Assembly: GCA_937904325.1 (NCBI GenBank) | Contig: CALGTK010000278.1 | Location: 1 to 53,647 of the forward strand | Length of the DNA: 53,647 nt | Origin: an uncultured Planctomyces sp. | Lineage (GTDB): Bacteria > Planctomycetota > Planctomycetia > Planctomycetales > Planctomycetaceae | Reading direction: 5' to 3' | Shown here: piece by piece, positions 27,874-47,306 of the stretch | Position numbering within the stretch: the stretch's first letter is position 1 | Layout: every line of letters starts with the position of its first letter | Notes under the pieces: model-generated | Told to the model about the DNA's origin: nothing | Seen by the model: the letters and a program-made list of their open reading frames with translations, nothing else | Databases searched by the model: none | Position numbers and translations under genes: made by a program

Positions 27874-29166
27874 GTGGAGAATCGTCAGATTTCAGACCGT
27901 ACAGGTGCGCACACTGCCGCGTCAGATAATGCGTCATTCGGCAGCGATGACCTGCAGTTGGAAGACGTGTTGCTGGATGATCACCATTCGGCTTCGGTTG
28001 CGGAGACACTGTTTCGTTCTTCCGTGCTGACGGGTGCGACGGTTGCAGTGTTGTTTTATCTCGGATTGATCAACGTCGTTCTGCCGTTGGTGCCGGGCTA
28101 TCAGGCTTCACTCGAAACGTTGTTCTGTGGCCATCCGCTGGCGTATGGGACGACGATTCTATTCTGGATTGGGATGGCGGCTCTGGGCGGAAAATGGTTG
28201 TCCGCAGGTGCTGACCGCGACGCGTTGAACTGGAACCCCGAGCTGAATGCAGCCGGAGCGACCGCCGTTTTAAACGCTGGGTTGCTTAACAAATCCTTCA
28301 CGGGGCTGCCGAGTAAGTCCCGAGAGACGTGGTTGGCTCAGCGGTATCAGGGAATCGCGAAGTTTGTGCTTGGACGACGTACCGCCGCCGGGCTCAACTC
28401 GCACCTCGAATATCTCGCTGAGTTTGCAGGTGAGCAGCTTTACGGCAGTTACGCACTTGTCCGAACGATTACCTGGGCAGTGCCGATCCTCGGCTTCCTC
28501 GGAACGGTTATTGGGATCACGCATGCCATCGAGAATCTTGACCCAGCTAAGCTGGAATCATCATTCGGGATGGTCGCGTCCGGGCTGGGTGTCGCCTTCG
28601 GAACGACGGCGTTATCGCTCAGTCTTTCGCTGGTACTGGTTTTTTTCTCGGCGTTTGTGGAGAAGACTCAAAAGTCTGTATTGGCCGACGTCGAAATTCT
28701 CGCCCTGGACCTCGTCACGAACTACTTCCCTGAAGAAGAACAGGCGCTGAGTCCTCTGGTCGAAGCGGAATCCGTAGCTGCAAGTCGACTGCTTGAGCAA
28801 ACGGAAACGCTGTTGAAAAGACACGTTTTGCTGTGGGAGTCGAGTCTCGGCGATCTGCGGAACAGCTGGGGTGAAATACTGATGCAACATCAGAATGAGC
28901 TGGAATCGTCGCTCAGCACGGCGGTGTCGCAATCACTCGCCGGTTGTCGAGACTCGCTTTCGCAACAGACGGCGGCTCAAAAAGTACTTGCTGCATCGCT
29001 CGAGCAAATGTCAGTCAGTCAGCGGCAGCTGGCAGAGACTCAGCAGGCGATCATTCTGCGACTGGAAAATAATGACTCAACTGAATCGCTGGATGAAACA
29101 CTGCACACGCTTAGCGCGGCAGTTCATCTTCTGACGTCGAGAGTAAGTTCGTCGAAGGCGGCGTGA
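27874..29166 (+). CDS. TolQ/ExbB/MotA-family proton channel protein
   Basis: A 430-residue membrane protein. The GTG at 27874 has GGGAG eight bases upstream. Hydrophobic segments lie at about 48-72, 88-108, 192-212 and 230-258. The last two carry the family signature (VPILGFLGTVIGITHAIE, then GLGVAFGTTALSLSLSLVLVFFS). These proteins form the inner-membrane channel that couples proton flow to work by a partner with a single membrane segment. The C-terminal 170 residues are helical and probably cytoplasmic, longer than in ExbB or TolQ. Two genes downstream (63- and 33-base gaps) encode single-span proteins, the natural B-type partners. The process served is unknown. Confidence 0.88.
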   Translation: MENRQISDRTGAHTAASDNASFGSDDLQLEDVLLDDHHSASVAETLFRSSVLTGATVAVLFYLGLINVVLPLVPGYQASLETLFCGHPLAYGTTILFWIGMAALGGKWLSAGADRDALNWNPELNAAGATAVLNAGLLNKSFTGLPSKSRETWLAQRYQGIAKFVLGRRTAAGLNSHLEYLAEFAGEQLYGSYALVRTITWAVPILGFLGTVIGITHAIENLDPAKLESSFGMVASGLGVAFGTTALSLSLSLVLVFFSAFVEKTQKSVLADVEILALDLVTNYFPEEEQALSPLVEAESVAASRLLEQTETLLKRHVLLWESSLGDLRNSWGEILMQHQNELESSLSTAVSQSLAGCRDSLSQQTAAQKVLAASLEQMSVSQRQLAETQQAIILRLENNDSTESLDETLHTLSAAVHLLTSRVSSSKAA

Positions 29167-29229
29167 GTGTCTTTGCGTCGGCCGTCGAGTTTGCCAATCG
29201 TTCAACATTAGATCCTGAGAGTTTGTCAG

Positions 29230-31695
29230 ATGGCCCGTTCGCAACGGACATCGAATCCTGTCACGCTTTTCCCGTTCCTGGCCGTGCTGCTGTGTACGAT
29301 CGGAGCGCTGGTTCTGATGCTCGTTGTTGTTTCGGCCGGAATCCGAAAAGACGCCGTCGCGATCGCCAAACAAAAGTTGAAAGCTGAGACTTTTGTGAAG
29401 TCAGAGCAAGACGCCCAACCGGCGGTTCCAGAACTGGCGGAGGCTGAACCGAAAGTCGAAGATTCAGTCGTCGTGGTTCAGAAACTGACTCCAGAGCAGC
29501 AGCCGATCGAGCCTCTGCTTGCTCGAGACCCACTTCTGACTCCGATCAAAGAAGCCGCGCCGAGGACGCTTGCTGAGATTGCCGAATTGGAGCAGGTCGC
29601 GAAGAAGCTGGAAGCAGAAGTCGCCAGCAGAGCAAGGCGACTGAACAGCGTGGCTGTGAAGACGCACGCTCTAAGAAAACAGTTGAGAACGGTGAAGGCT
29701 CAGCAGAACGACCTTCAGTTGCAGATCATTCGAACGGCGAATCAGCGAGCAAAGCTTGAAGAATCTACCGGGGAACTACGTGTCGAGAATCAGCAGATCA
29801 TCGAATGGCTGGATGAGTCGCGAAAGCTGATTGACGAGCACAAAGACCAGCTCGTCAGCCCCGTGCATTCGATTGTGCCGTATGATGGCCAGACGGGGAC
29901 CGTACGCAGGGCAATTATTATCGAATGTGTTGGCGACGTTGTGCGTTTCGAAGCCGAACAGATCGAAATTCCAGTTGCGATCCTTCAGAAGTTCAGCCCA
30001 CAGCAAAATCCTTTGGCGTCGGGAGTGCAGGCATTGTTTCGCTACTGGATGGCGAAGGAGCAGATTTCAGACCCGGGAAGACGACAGAGGAAACCCTACG
30101 CGTTGGTTCTGGTCCGACCGTCCGGAGCGGAAGCATTTTCATCGGCCGTATTTGCGATGGACGGAATGGTTGGCGACTTTGGTTACGAACTGGTCGAGAC
30201 CCAATTTTGTTACGAAATCCCCGAAACGACAGCCGACGCAGTGCGTGAATGCCGGGCAGCGGTCGCGGCTGAAATTCGACGAGGCCCGACTCGTGCGAGA
30301 CGAACACTCAATCCTCAGGGGCCGATTGATATCGCCAGAGTGGCGCGCGGACCGGCGGCTTCGCGGAGTTTCTTCGGGAGTTCGGATTTTCGGAATCGTA
30401 ATTCTGCCATAACGGCCAGTGACGCGGAGCTGGGCATAGGTCCGGCAGCGGTCGAGGCTGATGGAAACGCCGGCGAGTCCTTCGCTGCCGCGGCGGTACA
30501 CCGTGAAGCTGAAGCGAAGGCTGCTGTGGAGCGTGTAAAGCAACTGTTAAATGGTCGTAGTGCCGAAGCGTCGAATTTACTGAACAGAGGAACTCCCGCT
30601 CAGTTCGACGACGCAAGAGCGGCAGTTCTGACGGAAGCCGCGCGTATGGAAGCGGAACTCCGGCGAAACGGTCAAGCGGCCGCGTCCACTGGATTGTCGG
30701 AAGGCTTCCAGCAAGAGCTTGCAGCCAGAGATGGTCGTCCAGTTCGGTCAGATCAGCAGTCGCGGCAGCCTGATAATTCTTTCATTAGAAAAACGATGAC
30801 TGGGAATCTGGATCGATCAGCGCCGTCGGCTGGTGCGGCTTCACGCGATCGAATTTCGGCCGAGCCGGTCGTCGAGGCAGGGCAGAATGATTCAGAACGC
30901 CGAGGAGATTTGCCGGCGAATTCGAAATCAGGAAGCGGCACTTCGCGAAGGTTTGATAGTTCCGACGGCAGACCGGCTGTTGGCAATGGCGACAATGCCG
31001 GAGCAACTGGTCGTGAAGGCAAAATTGGAACCAGTGGTGGTGGGGAACGAGCGGGCTCTTCGACGCCTGATCCAACGTTAATCACCGGACGCAATGAGCG
31101 TGTCGAGTCGGGCAGTGTGCAGGGAGACTCACCCCCGCAAACGTCGGGCAGGGCCCCGAGGAATAATGCCTCAACAGACAGGCGGACATCTCAAGTCCAG
31201 CCGGTCGGGAAACGATCGGCTTCGACCGGTCAGGAAATTAGTTCGTTGATAAACAGGTCACCCGGCTCGACGGTGGGAAGCTCATCGTCGACGTCATTAT
31301 CCGGCGGTGAAAGTTCGACGGTTGCTTCCGGAAGACCGGTGATGCCGACAAGAAATCTGACGAATCGAATTCAATCGTTAAAGACTCAACGACGATGGGG
31401 ACGCAGTCACCCCAATGCGTCGCTCGGACTTGAAAAAATGGTCGAGATTCGAATTGAGTCGAATAGAATTGTGGTCGCGAATCAGTTTCAGGTAACACGG
31501 ACTGCGGAGCGTTCGAAAGAGGAACTCGTGAAGCTGACAATTCAGACAATCGAACATCTCGCCAATCAGTGGGGCTTGCCGCCGTCGAGATTTTACTGGG
31601 TGCCGTCGGTACGTCTTCTGTTTGAACCGGCGGAGAACCTGCTCGGGACGATTCTCGAAAAGGGAGTGGAAGATGCGGGAGCAGCTTTGGAATAG
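29230..31695 (+). CDS. Large single-span protein, partner of TolQ-like channel
   Basis: An 821-residue protein with one membrane segment right at the N-terminus (NPVTLFPFLAVLLCTIGALV, residues about 9-35), preceded by a short basic stretch, which is the topology of ExbD/MotB-type proteins. A coiled coil follows (about 105-205), then a folded region (about 215-345), a long Ser/Gly/Arg/Asn-rich low-complexity linker (about 480-710) and a compact conserved-looking C-terminal domain (about 735-821: ESNRIVVANQFQV through SRFYWVPSVRLLFEP). It lacks the Asp that ExbD and MotB carry in the membrane segment, whereas the next gene has one. No named family recognised. Operon position ties it to the channel protein. 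Confidence 0.8.
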   Translation: MARSQRTSNPVTLFPFLAVLLCTIGALVLMLVVVSAGIRKDAVAIAKQKLKAETFVKSEQDAQPAVPELAEAEPKVEDSVVVVQKLTPEQQPIEPLLARDPLLTPIKEAAPRTLAEIAELEQVAKKLEAEVASRARRLNSVAVKTHALRKQLRTVKAQQNDLQLQIIRTANQRAKLEESTGELRVENQQIIEWLDESRKLIDEHKDQLVSPVHSIVPYDGQTGTVRRAIIIECVGDVVRFEAEQIEIPVAILQKFSPQQNPLASGVQALFRYWMAKEQISDPGRRQRKPYALVLVRPSGAEAFSSAVFAMDGMVGDFGYELVETQFCYEIPETTADAVRECRAAVAAEIRRGPTRARRTLNPQGPIDIARVARGPAASRSFFGSSDFRNRNSAITASDAELGIGPAAVEADGNAGESFAAAAVHREAEAKAAVERVKQLLNGRSAEASNLLNRGTPAQFDDARAAVLTEAARMEAELRRNGQAAASTGLSEGFQQELAARDGRPVRSDQQSRQPDNSFIRKTMTGNLDRSAPSAGAASRDRISAEPVVEAGQNDSERRGDLPANSKSGSGTSRRFDSSDGRPAVGNGDNAGATGREGKIGTSGGGERAGSSTPDPTLITGRNERVESGSVQGDSPPQTSGRAPRNNASTDRRTSQVQPVGKRSASTGQEISSLINRSPGSTVGSSSSTSLSGGESSTVASGRPVMPTRNLTNRIQSLKTQRRWGRSHPNASLGLEKMVEIRIESNRIVVANQFQVTRTAERSKEELVKLTIQTIEHLANQWGLPPSRFYWVPSVRLLFEPAENLLGTILEKGVEDAGAALE

Positions 31696-31728
31696 CGAAT
31701 GTCTAAATCAAGTTAAGGACGCAGGCTA

Positions 31729-32907
31729 ATGCGCGGTCGCGTTGGACGCGGCGATCCAGATTTTGGATCGGATTCGTTTCTGGACATCATTGCGAACCTG
31801 GTTGGAATTCTCGTGATTCTGATCGTACTTGCCGGATTGCGCGCCGCCCAGGTTTCCGTAGCTCCAGAAGTAGTGGAAGTGGCCGCTGTTCGGGGAGAGT
31901 CGTCAAGTGTTTTGAATACGACCGCTCGGCCCGTTGAAACAATGACTCACTCTGGCGAGTCGGCCGCTGTTTTGGTTGCTGTCGCCTTGCCGAAGAGAGC
32001 CGAGGTCGGCATTCAGCCAAATCCTGAGTCGCAGCTAGGCAAGGACGCTGTGCCACTGGAAATTGCTGATTCGCAACGGCAGGAGTTACTGGGCGTTGTA
32101 GATGGGTTGGAAGCTCGACTGGCGGCACTGCCCGTGAATAGTGCACTGGCCGACTTGAAAGTGTTGCAGTCCGAGTTGGCGGTGGCGGCTGGACTGATGC
32201 CAGGGTTGCAGCAACGACTTGCGAAAGAGAACGCCGTACGACGCCAATCATTGATCGCAGCGTCGGAGTTCGATGCCGAGTATCAGGCCTTACGAACGCA
32301 ACTCGTCGAAGTTAACCAGACATTCGAAGAGTTAAAAACAGCCGATCGTCCTGTCGAGGAATTTGAGTTACGTATTAACCCTGTCGGAAGGCGAAGTCGC
32401 GGCGAAGAGCTGATGTTTCGAATTGAGGATGGCCGACTGGTTCATTTGCCTGCCGCAGCTTTGTTCGGGAAAGCGGAACTGCAGTCGGGACGATTAACAC
32501 CGCTGAGCGGAGCTTCTGATTTGGAATCCGGATCTGCAGGTCCGCTGAACGGGGTCACGCTGGATTATGAGACACAGGTGATTGCGGCTATGGTGCCGAC
32601 GTCGTCGGGATCGTCGACGTACGCTCTTCGTAAGCTGATGCGCGGCACGCTTCGAGTCACTCGGCTCTCTGTGGCGGAAGAATGGAGGAAGTCGATGAAT
32701 GATGAGGGAGTCGTCTCCCGGCTGATGCTGGCAGCACCGCCGAACGCGTTCGCTCGAATCTTTGTAACACCCGACAGCTTCGGAGCTGCTCGCCGTGTGG
32801 CTGCATTTATCCGGACGCTCGGCCACGGAGTGGCCACGATGCCGATCGAATCGGGTACGGACATTAAGCTGACGTACGGAAATGGCTCGGACGCGCTGGT
32901 GCAGTAG
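31729..32907 (+). CDS. ExbD/MotB-like single-span protein, second partner of TolQ-like channel
   Basis: A 392-residue protein with a short N-terminal cytoplasmic stretch and one membrane segment (SFLDIIANLVGILVILIVLA, about 16-35). Asp19 at the start of that segment matches in position the essential proton-handling Asp of ExbD, TolR and MotB. The extracytoplasmic part has a coiled coil (about 115-210) and a C-terminal globular domain (about 220-390). The ATG has AGG upstream and follows the 821-residue gene by 33 bases. Together with the two preceding genes it forms a TolQ-like channel with two different B-type subunits. No peptidoglycan-binding OmpA motif is visible. Confidence 0.8.
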   Translation: MRGRVGRGDPDFGSDSFLDIIANLVGILVILIVLAGLRAAQVSVAPEVVEVAAVRGESSSVLNTTARPVETMTHSGESAAVLVAVALPKRAEVGIQPNPESQLGKDAVPLEIADSQRQELLGVVDGLEARLAALPVNSALADLKVLQSELAVAAGLMPGLQQRLAKENAVRRQSLIAASEFDAEYQALRTQLVEVNQTFEELKTADRPVEEFELRINPVGRRSRGEELMFRIEDGRLVHLPAAALFGKAELQSGRLTPLSGASDLESGSAGPLNGVTLDYETQVIAAMVPTSSGSSTYALRKLMRGTLRVTRLSVAEEWRKSMNDEGVVSRLMLAAPPNAFARIFVTPDSFGAARRVAAFIRTLGHGVATMPIESGTDIKLTYGNGSDALVQ

Positions 32908-33191: not shown

Positions 33192-33521
33192 GTGAGTAAT
33201 GTACGTTTAACTAACAAAGAGGATTCGTACGTCATCGCCGTTGATTTCTGGAACGAAGTGTTGGACTGGGCCGAGGACAATGGGTGGACTCCGGAGCACG
33301 AAGCGATTTGCTATCGCGGTCAGATGGAGCTTTCGGTCGGTCACGATGACGCCATAAATATTTCCGACGCCCTGGAGTTTATTGCGGGCGACATCGTCCT
33401 GCATGAGTACGAAGTTCCCGATCAGTTTCTGAGGCACCTGCTCGACAGTCTTTTAAAGTTGTCTGTCTTTTTTCAGGTGGGCGAGTTCCGTATTCTGCCA
33501 CAGGCTAAGACTGAATTCTGA
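33192..33521 (+). CDS. Small acidic hypothetical protein
   Basis: A 109-residue soluble acidic protein. The GTG start at 33192 has AGGGAG seven bases upstream, which strongly supports it. Sequence shows a mixed alpha/beta pattern (VIAVDFWNEVLDWAEDNGW, then SVGHDDAINISDALEFIAG) but no known motif. No signal peptide or membrane segment. It lies 284 bases after the TolQ-like operon, with no visible terminator in between, and 34 bases before the amidohydrolase gene, with which it may share a transcript. Function not recognised. Confidence 0.75.
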   Translation: MSNVRLTNKEDSYVIAVDFWNEVLDWAEDNGWTPEHEAICYRGQMELSVGHDDAINISDALEFIAGDIVLHEYEVPDQFLRHLLDSLLKLSVFFQVGEFRILPQAKTEF

Positions 33522-44604: not shown

Positions 44605-46890
44605 TTATTTGCCGGCTCGTTCAAGTTCGTCGCCGATCTGATAGAGCGGCAGGAAGCGGTAATAGACTTCCAGGCAAAGCGTGCTGAGAGCTGTCGAGAA
44701 GACTCGGCCTCCGTATGGCCCCCAGGGAGCTTTGGGATCCCAGCTTCCGGCAGCGTGGCCGGTCGTTCGCTGGTCGTCAACGAGGTGGTCTCGCAGGGCG
44801 GTGTTCCATGCTCGCCATTCGCTACCGCCGTACTGGTACATCGCCAGCGTTCCGTAGTACCAGTAGTAGAGGTCTTCTGACTGCCGATTTGGAAGCCTGT
44901 CCATCAGGTATTCGACCGCTTCGAGGCTTTGTGGGTTTGAACGGTTCAGCCCGAGCATCTGTTTGCAGAACAAGGCTTCGGCCGTCATTGATGGCGAAGG
45001 CGGAAGAGGATCGAACTCCGGCGGGAGTACTCGGTAAGCAGCCAGTCCTTTGCGATCCCCGAGGCTGCGATCGCGCAGGAACTTGATAAGTCCCTGACGC
45101 GTTGCAACCGGAACCTGAACGCCGGCAATTTCGGCACTTTTCAGCGCCATCAATTGCCAGCCGAACATGCTCATGTCGCTGCGTTGCCCTTTGAGGTATC
45201 GCCAGCCTCCGTCATCTTTGTTCTGGGCATCAATGATGTATGCGACGGCTTTGGTCAGAGGGATGCGGAGTCGGCGGTCGTTGGAGCGGTCAGTCTGCAT
45301 GCCCAACGCTTCGGCCATGGCGTAAGTGGCGATGGCGTGGCAGTACATTTTCGCATACCGAGTTGCCTTGCCACCGAAGAAGCCGTTCGAAGATTGCTCG
45401 CGGACCAGCCATCTCAACGCTCGGTCAACCTGGTCAGCGTACTGGCCTTCTTCGTGCGTGTAGCCCGCTCCGAGGAACGCCAGAATCGCCAGCCCCGTCA
45501 CACCGGCATCAGCCTGCAGTCCGGCGTTCAATCGGTCGACTTTGTCTTCGTCGATTTTGATTCGGCCTGATCGACCGGTGCAGCGATCGCCGTCCGGGCA
45601 CATTCCCGAGAAGCCGTCCGCATCCCAGTACCCGGCCGGATTCTGGTGCAGCGCGAGCCACTGCAGGCTTGTCTCGACCGCTTTTTCAGACTCTTCGGTG
45701 CCTCCGTATCGACGAGCCGTTTCCTGTCGCCGAGCCAGCGATCGCAGGCGGTAGGTCGGAGGAATCTTGGTCGTGACGCCTGGATCGACCGATTCAAAGT
45801 TCGGCCGAATTACGTTCGGCTGCGGAGCGTCTGTCGGGAACGGGCTCGGCAGTCCGCTGCGAACGGCGACGACCGGCGACGGCAGCGGAGTTTTCGCTTG
45901 CGGAGTCAGGTCCGGGCGAAACCGCTCGATGCCGCCAAGTTCTTCCATTTTCGGAGTTCTTGTTCGCAGGCGGCTGAATTTTGGAGTTGTCGCTCCGCCA
46001 CTGACCGATCCGCTGGTCGAGTTCTCGGCAACTGTTCCTGCCGTCTTTTCCTGTAGCGTCGACGGAGCAGGGGCCGTGCGGCGTTTGATTGGCTCGTCAG
46101 TGACGCCTCGTTCAAGGAACGAAGTCGGATCGACGGTCTTACCGATTTTTGCAAGCTGTCGAGTGGCGTTGAAGTCAGGAGCGATCTTGTCGACGGAACC
46201 ACGATTCGGAGTTCGTTTGACGCTGACATCTTTGAGGCCGCTTTCGCGAACGGTGCGCTTAATCGATGACAGCGATGGAAGGTTGATGTCAGGCCTGGCT
46301 TCGGCGGTGGAGTCGTTGACTGTCCGGGGGGCTGCCGATTCGATTTTTCGTCCGGTGTTTCCAAAGTCGCGAGGTTCGGGCCGCGAGACTTCAAGTTCGG
46401 GCAGCGACCTTGCGTCAGGGATCATGATATCAGGTCGCGTGATCGGCTCGGGAAGCCGTTCCGGACTTTCGAGGGGTTCGAATTCCATCGGCGCGTGATC
46501 GCTGCGTGAGAGTTGCTGATTCGGCTTGCTGAGCACCTTTTCCCAGACGGGAGTGTTGCCGGAAGTGTCGGCTTCGATCGGCTCTTCACCTTCGAGGAGA
46601 ATCTTCCGAATCTGAAACGGTTTCTCAACGCTGGCCATCACGAGTTGCTCAGGCGGAGAAACGGCGACCGCTCCGAAAGCCAGTGACAGGTGCAGCAGCA
46701 CCGAGCACATAAATGCTTTGCCGGTCGGATCGCTGTCGCCCCACTTGGTCACCATCATTGTGATGAAGTGGATCGTTGCGAACAGCATTCCCGCGAGCAG
46801 CGAGACCCACAACGCCACTTCGACTTCTTCGGTTGTTGAGCCGAAGGTTGAAGCCAGCCATTCGACGAATTCGATGGCAGCCAGAATCAT
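44605..46890 (-). CDS. Membrane protein with prenyltransferase/squalene-oxidase-like toroid
   Basis: A 761-residue protein. The N-terminus holds two membrane segments (about 25-50 and 60-78), followed by a long, Pro/Arg/Glu-rich, probably unstructured region to about residue 390. The C-terminal 370 residues form an alpha/alpha-toroid of the terpene-cyclase/prenyltransferase type: repeated ALHQNPAGYWDADGF, REQSSNGFFGG, AQNKDDGGWRYL and DLYYWYYGTLAMYQYGG units with QW-like motifs. No DxDD or DCTAE cyclase motif is seen, so it is probably a binding domain rather than a cyclase. Its ATG overlaps the exbD stop by four bases (ATGA), so the two are translationally coupled. Function unknown. Confidence 0.82.
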   Translation of the reverse strand: MILAAIEFVEWLASTFGSTTEEVEVALWVSLLAGMLFATIHFITMMVTKWGDSDPTGKAFMCSVLLHLSLAFGAVAVSPPEQLVMASVEKPFQIRKILLEGEEPIEADTSGNTPVWEKVLSKPNQQLSRSDHAPMEFEPLESPERLPEPITRPDIMIPDARSLPELEVSRPEPRDFGNTGRKIESAAPRTVNDSTAEARPDINLPSLSSIKRTVRESGLKDVSVKRTPNRGSVDKIAPDFNATRQLAKIGKTVDPTSFLERGVTDEPIKRRTAPAPSTLQEKTAGTVAENSTSGSVSGGATTPKFSRLRTRTPKMEELGGIERFRPDLTPQAKTPLPSPVVAVRSGLPSPFPTDAPQPNVIRPNFESVDPGVTTKIPPTYRLRSLARRQETARRYGGTEESEKAVETSLQWLALHQNPAGYWDADGFSGMCPDGDRCTGRSGRIKIDEDKVDRLNAGLQADAGVTGLAILAFLGAGYTHEEGQYADQVDRALRWLVREQSSNGFFGGKATRYAKMYCHAIATYAMAEALGMQTDRSNDRRLRIPLTKAVAYIIDAQNKDDGGWRYLKGQRSDMSMFGWQLMALKSAEIAGVQVPVATRQGLIKFLRDRSLGDRKGLAAYRVLPPEFDPLPPSPSMTAEALFCKQMLGLNRSNPQSLEAVEYLMDRLPNRQSEDLYYWYYGTLAMYQYGGSEWRAWNTALRDHLVDDQRTTGHAAGSWDPKAPWGPYGGRVFSTALSTLCLEVYYRFLPLYQIGDELERAGK

Positions 46891-47306
46891 GGCGACTCTC
46901 TAAGTCGGTTTGCTAGTGAAATGTGGCTGATCTTCGCACGATGGCACGCGGTCAGCACGTCCACCACATTCTGATACGGATCCGGTCCAGAGCCTCGCAC
47001 AACGACTGACTGATCTGGATAGTTGTCACGAGCCTCGCTGAGTCGCTGTTCAAGCGCGGCGATACTCAACTGCTCGTCACTAATCGAAACCTGACCTTCG
47101 GCGTCAACATTAACGATGATCTCGTCCGGCCGACTGGTCAGCGGCGGCGCGTCACTGACGGACGGAACCTGCACGTCGAATTGACGTTCCTGCTCGGTGA
47201 ACTGAGTTCCGACCATGAAAAAGATGATCAACAGAAAAACGATGTCGATCATCGGCGTAAGATTAAGAGTCGGCTCGCTCGATGGGTCAGCGACTTTCAG
47301 CGGCAT
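46887..47306 (-). CDS. ExbD/TolR-family biopolymer transport protein
   Basis: A 139-residue ExbD/TolR protein with a short cytoplasmic start, one membrane segment with the essential Asp (NLTPMIDIVFLLIIFFMVG, about 15-33) and a periplasmic domain with the family fold (IIVNVDAEGQVSISDEQLS, VVVRGSGPDPYQNVVDVL). It normally works with an ExbB/TolQ channel to couple proton flow to outer-membrane or envelope tasks. No exbB gene is adjacent; 390 bases upstream are empty. The stop overlaps the toroid gene start (ATGA). Confidence 0.93.
   Translation of the reverse strand: MPLKVADPSSEPTLNLTPMIDIVFLLIIFFMVGTQFTEQERQFDVQVPSVSDAPPLTSRPDEIIVNVDAEGQVSISDEQLSIAALEQRLSEARDNYPDQSVVVRGSGPDPYQNVVDVLTACHRAKISHISLANRLRESP

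Follow-up and report, generated by a model that had tools for sequence, protein, structure and literature searches.

The window analyzed here is a stretch of 53,647 nucleotides from an uncultured Planctomyces sp. (contig CALGTK010000278.1), and it contains three open reading frames, here called A, B1 and B2, which all lie on the + strand and are separated by gaps of 63 and 33 bases. This arrangement is the one given in an earlier note on the same DNA, made from the letters alone, which had described the first product as a four-span TolQ/ExbB-type channel and the other two as proteins with one N-terminal membrane segment followed by a coiled coil. The A gene (27874..29166, + strand) encodes a MotA/TolQ/ExbB-type channel subunit of 430 aa with a C-terminal cytoplasmic tail of about 170 residues, an assignment based on PF01618 and on a family-wide alignment (A3). 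Its match to PF01618 (MotA_ExbB) reaches 48.7 bits (E 8e-13) for a cut-off of 22.9. Hydropathy reveals three clear spans at residues 48-77, about 194-220 and about 233-265, and inspection of the sequence adds a fourth, weaker one at about 85-107, which makes a count of four reasonable. The earlier note had also attributed five- or four-span channels to the known systems of this kind; ExbB and TolQ have three spans and MotA has four, not five. By motif, Thr211 (28504..28506, + strand) and Thr245 (28606..28608, + strand) of A would be the equivalents of the pore residues Thr145 and Thr178 of TolQ, and Thr is found at these positions in 32/33 and 33/33 aligned A proteins, respectively.

The second gene, B1 (29230..31695, + strand), encodes a B-type subunit of 821 aa that is devoid of the characteristic Asp and carries two predicted ExbD/TolR-like heads, and the third, B2 (31729..32907, + strand), encodes a B-type subunit of 392 aa with the conserved Asp. 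In agreement with the earlier description, each of them has a single strong N-terminal span by hydropathy (residues 8-40 in B1 and 12-49 in B2) and, behind it, a long predicted helix in a near-identical place (111-205 and 110-204). The membrane helix of B1 maps to 29269..29349 (+ strand, motif LFPFLAVLLCTIGALVLML), and that of B2, delimited by alignment, AF2 model and hydropathy, to 31768..31851 (+ strand, motif SDSFLDIIANLVGILVILIV). In the AF2 models the stalk of B1 is one long helix (residues 111-205; 29560..29844, + strand), and that of B2 consists of the two helices 110-133 and 136-204 (32056..32340, + strand). Neither protein matches any Pfam family over its cut-off, and PF02472 (ExbD/TolR) has no match in either of them up to an E of 1. 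Profile matches to SMC, RecN, tropomyosin and 8qox_B were taken as generic coiled coils and set aside.

Beyond the stalks, AlphaFold2 models built from family alignments predict three confident heads, namely residues 221-392 of B2 (32389..32904, + strand; high pLDDT) and, in B1, residues 224-352 (head I; 29899..30285, + strand; pLDDT mostly 80-97) and 732-821 (head II; 31423..31692, + strand; pLDDT about 94). The C-terminal domain of the 821-residue protein had been regarded as novel in the earlier note, which is probably not the case. The top two structural matches of head II are the periplasmic domains of E. coli ExbD (8vgd and 8p9r, Z 7.5 and 7.4), with 67 residues aligned at 2.4-2.5 A, and the comparison of its profile with that of head I (96.2%, E 2e-9) indicates that the two heads of B1 are duplicates of each other. 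Head I matches TolR (5by4; Z 6.2, 83 residues aligned), and so does the B2 head (5by4; Z 5.7, 93/105 aligned), tied in this instance with other folds. These Z values of 5.7-7.5 are modest, unrelated folds scoring in the same range; Foldseek alone produced no PDB match for the heads at an E of 0.001 or better, and hhalign sequence profiles did not link them to ExbD. As modeled, the heads resemble the periplasmic domains of ExbD and TolR, in matches that arose without a sequence link and that make biological sense. The two heads of B1 are 368 residues apart in the window (over the cassettes this distance ranges from 91 to 558, with a median of 263), and the interval includes a low-complexity tether (residues 356-718; 30295..31383, + strand) that is mostly predicted to be disordered, with pLDDT values below 50 at 356-416 and in nearly all of 502-718 and a helical patch at 415-500.

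The three genes are conserved together. With B2 as the query, matches were obtained in 49 of 59 relatives, and among 40 loci of up to 20 kb each almost every one has A, B1 and B2 in collinear order; conservation of flanking genes in these loci does not extend past the genus, and the conserved unit is A, B1 and B2 alone. A scan of named genomes yielded 394 relatives, and all three genes are present in 71 of the best 80 of them; the carriers include Rhodopirellula, Gimesia, Thalassoglobus, Schlesneria and Thermogutta. Within the class of the host, B1 was detected in 182/199 genomes and 103/111 genera. The genomes of the class without B1 belong mostly to one family (f3), several other members of which do hold the cassette; their B1 has Ala, and their B2 has Asp wherever its gene is covered. 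Strong B2 matches outside the class are missing, the search beyond the phylum being one scan of named genomes in which the best 80 of 394 loci were kept. A collinear gene order conserved across dozens of genera is far beyond chance, and the idea of a three-gene unit put forward in the earlier note came through this comparison unrefuted. The cassette would be a core envelope machine of the Planctomycetes.

Comparison of B1 with B2 gives 98.8% (E 8e-17) for the whole profiles and 96.5% (E 9e-10) for the membrane helices only, which align without a gap; judged by these profiles, B1 and B2 are paralogs. The motif of the B1 helix is LFPFL-A-VLxCxMGAL and that of the B2 helix SDSFL-D-IxANxVGIL, and Ala18 of B1 (29281..29283, + strand) aligns exactly with Asp19 of B2 (31783..31785, + strand), the presumed proton-binding residue. 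That Asp occurs in B2 only had already been noticed from the window; what had been missed is that it is replaced at a homologous position in B1 and that most relatives have an extra Asp in A. Over 124 distinct cassettes, the key position of B1 is Ala in 110, Thr in 5, Asp in 8 and not covered in one (Ala or Thr in 115/123 scored cassettes), and the Asp of B2 is invariant in alignment A1. As a control, Asp is kept in 13/13 ordinary ExbD proteins of the same genome, paired ones included. On these alignments, the Asp has been lost specifically in B1. The cassettes that have Asp in B1 as well as in B2 (D/D clade) form one clade on the A tree with 100% support and are nested among members with Ala. 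The root of this tree is a very long branch, so that loss and regain of the B1 Asp both fit. The gene order is B1-B2-A in six of them, which combine Asp in both B proteins with AFNTT in A; in the others A precedes the B genes, has the opposite orientation or is found on a different contig. The existence of one clade with Asp in both B subunits implies that the asymmetry is not essential to the system.

The genome of the window is rich in such motors, with 12 MotA/TolQ/ExbB-type matches (A among them) and 13 ExbD matches, several of the ExbD proteins being paired. It also harbors a second A-B1-B2 cassette on another contig (C111, L202:5241-8934), whose products A', B1' and B2' measure 524, 267 and 374 aa, with Ser at the key position in B1' and Asp in B2'. 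The relatives of this second cassette display the same asymmetry in 12/12 loci in which both genes were read. Its A' protein has an N-terminal zinc-ribbon-like CPHC..CPYC segment.

The lengths of the two stalks bear on how B1 and B2 are assembled. Stalk spacing, defined as the distance from the membrane motif to the first head, is 185 residues in B1 and 182 in B2 of the window, with medians of 159.5 and 157 residues, and the two values, nearly equal within a genome, are correlated over 106 cassettes (rho 0.90) as well as in phylogenetic independent contrasts (PIC; r 0.73, 100 tips). The length of the A tail does not correlate with stalk spacing (r -0.02 and -0.06), and the B1-B2 correlation is absent when the longest Pro-free run is taken as a measure of the coil (rho -0.14); it is the full membrane-to-head spacing alone that correlates. 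Two chains reaching equal height side by side are the best explanation of this match, which argues for a B1:B2 heterodimer. The matched stalks could in part derive from shared linker drift, since the spacing in B2 is correlated with the tether of B1 as well (PIC r 0.43); overall, the correlation between tether and stalk spacing is weak to moderate (r 0.25 and the value just given). B1 and B2 could also exist as separate homodimers. A different arrangement would be an ordinary symmetric TolR-type motor, A5(B2)2, with B1 acting beside the pentamer as an accessory transducer like TonB or TolA. The lack of Asp in B1 and its long tether with a distal head do reproduce the TonB/TolA layout, and some PVC genomes pair TolQ and two TolR genes with a separate transducer (PMC12204202). 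Nevertheless, we consider this arrangement unlikely, given that the B1 helix is a gapless paralog of the B2 axle helix and not of a TonB-type helix, that the length of the B1 stalk tracks that of B2, and that the axle Asp is kept in B1 of one clade.

We think it probable that the three genes specify a motor of the TolQ/ExbB/MotA class that is driven by protons and has an asymmetric axle. The analogy with 5:2 motors suggests that it is most likely a 5:1:1 machine of the envelope whose axle carries a single proton site, and in which one B1 and one B2 helix would be enclosed by a wheel of five A subunits. The heteromeric stator proposed in the earlier note is the best supported reading because of the co-conservation of the genes, the B1/B2 paralogy, the B1-specific loss of Asp and the matched stalks, which, together with the gene content and the residue swap, are direct observations, the head folds being predictions; the load-bearing role that the note had assigned to B1 we can only infer. 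B1 and B2 would stand as adjacent stalks of equal length leading up to a pair of ExbD/TolR-like heads, with proton uptake by the Asp of B2 only and B1 behaving as a proton-dead helix. Protons passing via Asp19 would make the wheel and the axle rotate relative to one another, and B1 would transmit the movement to a fixed envelope target, its long flexible tether allowing the second ExbD-like head to reach peptidoglycan, the outer membrane or a partner. The tethered head may in this manner fasten the axle to a component of the outer envelope or pull on it, a job that in other systems is done by a separate TonB or TolA.

The wheel subunit may also have taken part in these changes. Gly243 of A (28600..28602, + strand) occupies a TM4 position two residues before Thr245. 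This position is Asp (AFDTT) in 107/113 scored cassettes with Ala or Thr in B1, Asn in all scored members of the D/D clade, and Gly in the window plus five relatives; it is Leu, Val or Phe in the ordinary ExbB proteins of the genome. With Gly at this position, the window's clade has one acid left. The pattern suggests that acids may have been exchanged between axle and wheel in evolution, and in the relatives with Asp in TM4 the A subunit may have taken over some of the handling of ions from B1. Since the tree provides only two independent contrasts, too few for significance, the exchange is offered as a hypothesis. Wheel acids are not without precedent, since ExbB and TolQ of E. coli have a TM3 Glu of their own nearby and the ion-binding acid of GldLM is located in the wheel subunit. 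It is conceivable, in our opinion improbable, that the main ion-carrying acid of the cassette resides in the wheel as well, in the TM4 Asp of A as in GldL, leaving the B subunits mainly mechanical. Such a wheel acid would fit the occurrence of Asp in A of most cassettes without a B1 Asp and of Asn wherever B1 has Asp. It would also fit another type of cassette found six times in family f2, with AFDST in TM4 of A and a single B (GEDSFVAVVVTKLTGALLF), where the wheel would carry the key acid because B has Ala at the Asp position. Against it, alignment A1 contains no exception to the Asp of B2, Gly takes this TM4 position in the clade of the window itself, the independent contrasts are just two, and one other f2 cassette possesses Glu in A (AFETT) together with Asp in both B proteins (LFSFQD, LDLLLD).

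Returning to the asymmetric motor, a tentative extension, which we hold to be possible without being probable, is that of a half-site rotary motor with an obligate B1:B2 axle, one proton-binding Asp and fewer and larger steps per turn, in which the second acid would have changed places during evolution between B1 in the axle and TM4 of A in the wheel, and the window's clade would run on a single acid. In models of 5:2 motors the two Asp sites are used in turn, with ten ions per turn and steps of 36 degrees (PMC9389320); with one site, and provided that the remainder of the scheme applies, each turn in the window's clade would take five ions and proceed in steps of about 72 degrees. According to a review (PMC9389320), it has not been established for any 5:2 motor whether the swap passes through a state with both sites protonated or one with both charged. 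A family near-universal in its class in which one Asp site has been removed by nature bears on the cooperation of the two sites, and its sister clades with two sites or an extra wheel acid constitute a ready-made variant series for this purpose.

Some members appear to have left the motor behind. Six B1-B2 pairs of family f2 have heads and neither Asp nor an adjacent A, and in one further f2 locus B2 likewise lacks Asp and an adjacent A, the upstream B1 being only partly on the contig. The six pairs are apparently motorless remnants or scaffolds. The same could be thought of the cassette as a whole, which would then be a non-energized scaffold with a mechanical stalk-and-head pair and a secondary channel. 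The persistence of B1-B2 pairs without Asp in either helix and without an adjacent A gene speaks for it, as does the fact that A-type matches elsewhere in those f2 genomes do not exceed 130 bits, compared with 296-548 for most intact genuine members. The strong constraint on A and on the B2 Asp elsewhere renders a scaffold very improbable.

As in ExbBD and TolQR, the cassette has a PF01618 wheel subunit, a single-span B with Asp and heads that resemble theirs in predicted structure; the B subunit of those systems is short, forms a symmetric dimer and works with a separate transducer (TonB, TolA), whereas here the axle would be a heterodimer and B1 contains a long tether of its own. Regarding the features of 5:2 motors, an Asp at the beginning of the membrane helix is present in B2 and its equivalent is absent from B1. 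GldLM provides an example of an ion-binding acid in the wheel and has a long periplasmic axle, but GldM dimers are symmetric and the protein is from a different family. The Tol-Pal genes tolA, tolB and pal are absent from the cluster, and the scanned neighbors in the window carry either different Pfam domains or no Pfam domain at all. Zorya ZorAB includes a MotA-like subunit with a long cytoplasmic tail in a 5:2 layout (PMC11890865), a layout that in our case would hold by analogy. A itself, besides its long tail, is weakly similar to ZorA profiles (PADLOC 37.6 bits, E 3e-10), as expected if the cassette were a Zorya-like anti-phage system. This identity was rejected because the ZorA scores and the neighboring genes do not fit: the NCBIfam ZorA cut-off is missed by far (15.5 vs 700 bits) and no ZorC/D/E-like gene is conserved beside the cassette. 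In addition, ZorB forms homodimers and has a domain that binds peptidoglycan, B1 and B2 have no OmpA-like domain match in Pfam, and near-universal presence in the class is unlike a mobile defense system; we therefore regard Zorya as extremely unlikely. By the tests run, the cassette is not Zorya, Tol-Pal or a PF02472 ExbD system.

The combination of one TolQ with two unlike TolR genes is already known from the AglRQS gliding motor of Myxococcus xanthus (PMC3169522) and from PVC vWA clusters (PMC12204202). The likeness to AglRQS is one of gene content alone, i.e., one TolQ-type and two unlike TolR/ExbD-type genes in a cluster; AglQ and AglS belong to PF02472 and measure just 162 and 194 aa, whereas the B proteins of the cassette are large and without a Pfam family, one of them lacking Asp and one having two heads. 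The PVC clusters also place a pair of unlike TolR-like genes by a TolQ-like gene, but TPR and vWA genes lie nearby there and no further conserved gene is found here; loss of Asp in one partner is not described in the part of that report available (PMC12204202). An incomplete coverage of the literature returned no functional description of the cassette, no publication on a B subunit naturally devoid of Asp, and no description of a lineage-wide Asp-less partner, a double-headed tethered B subunit or a coupled change in A.

Two other regions of the window deserve mention. Behind the cassette there is an ORF of 109 aa (33192-33521) without a Pfam match, which is kept in 2/3 loci of the same genus and was unseen outside the genus. 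Further along, an ordinary ExbD is encoded on the - strand (46887-47306; PF02472, E 3e-31), and the protein of 761 aa just downstream of it (44605-46890) has a weak match to a squalene-hopene cyclase domain.
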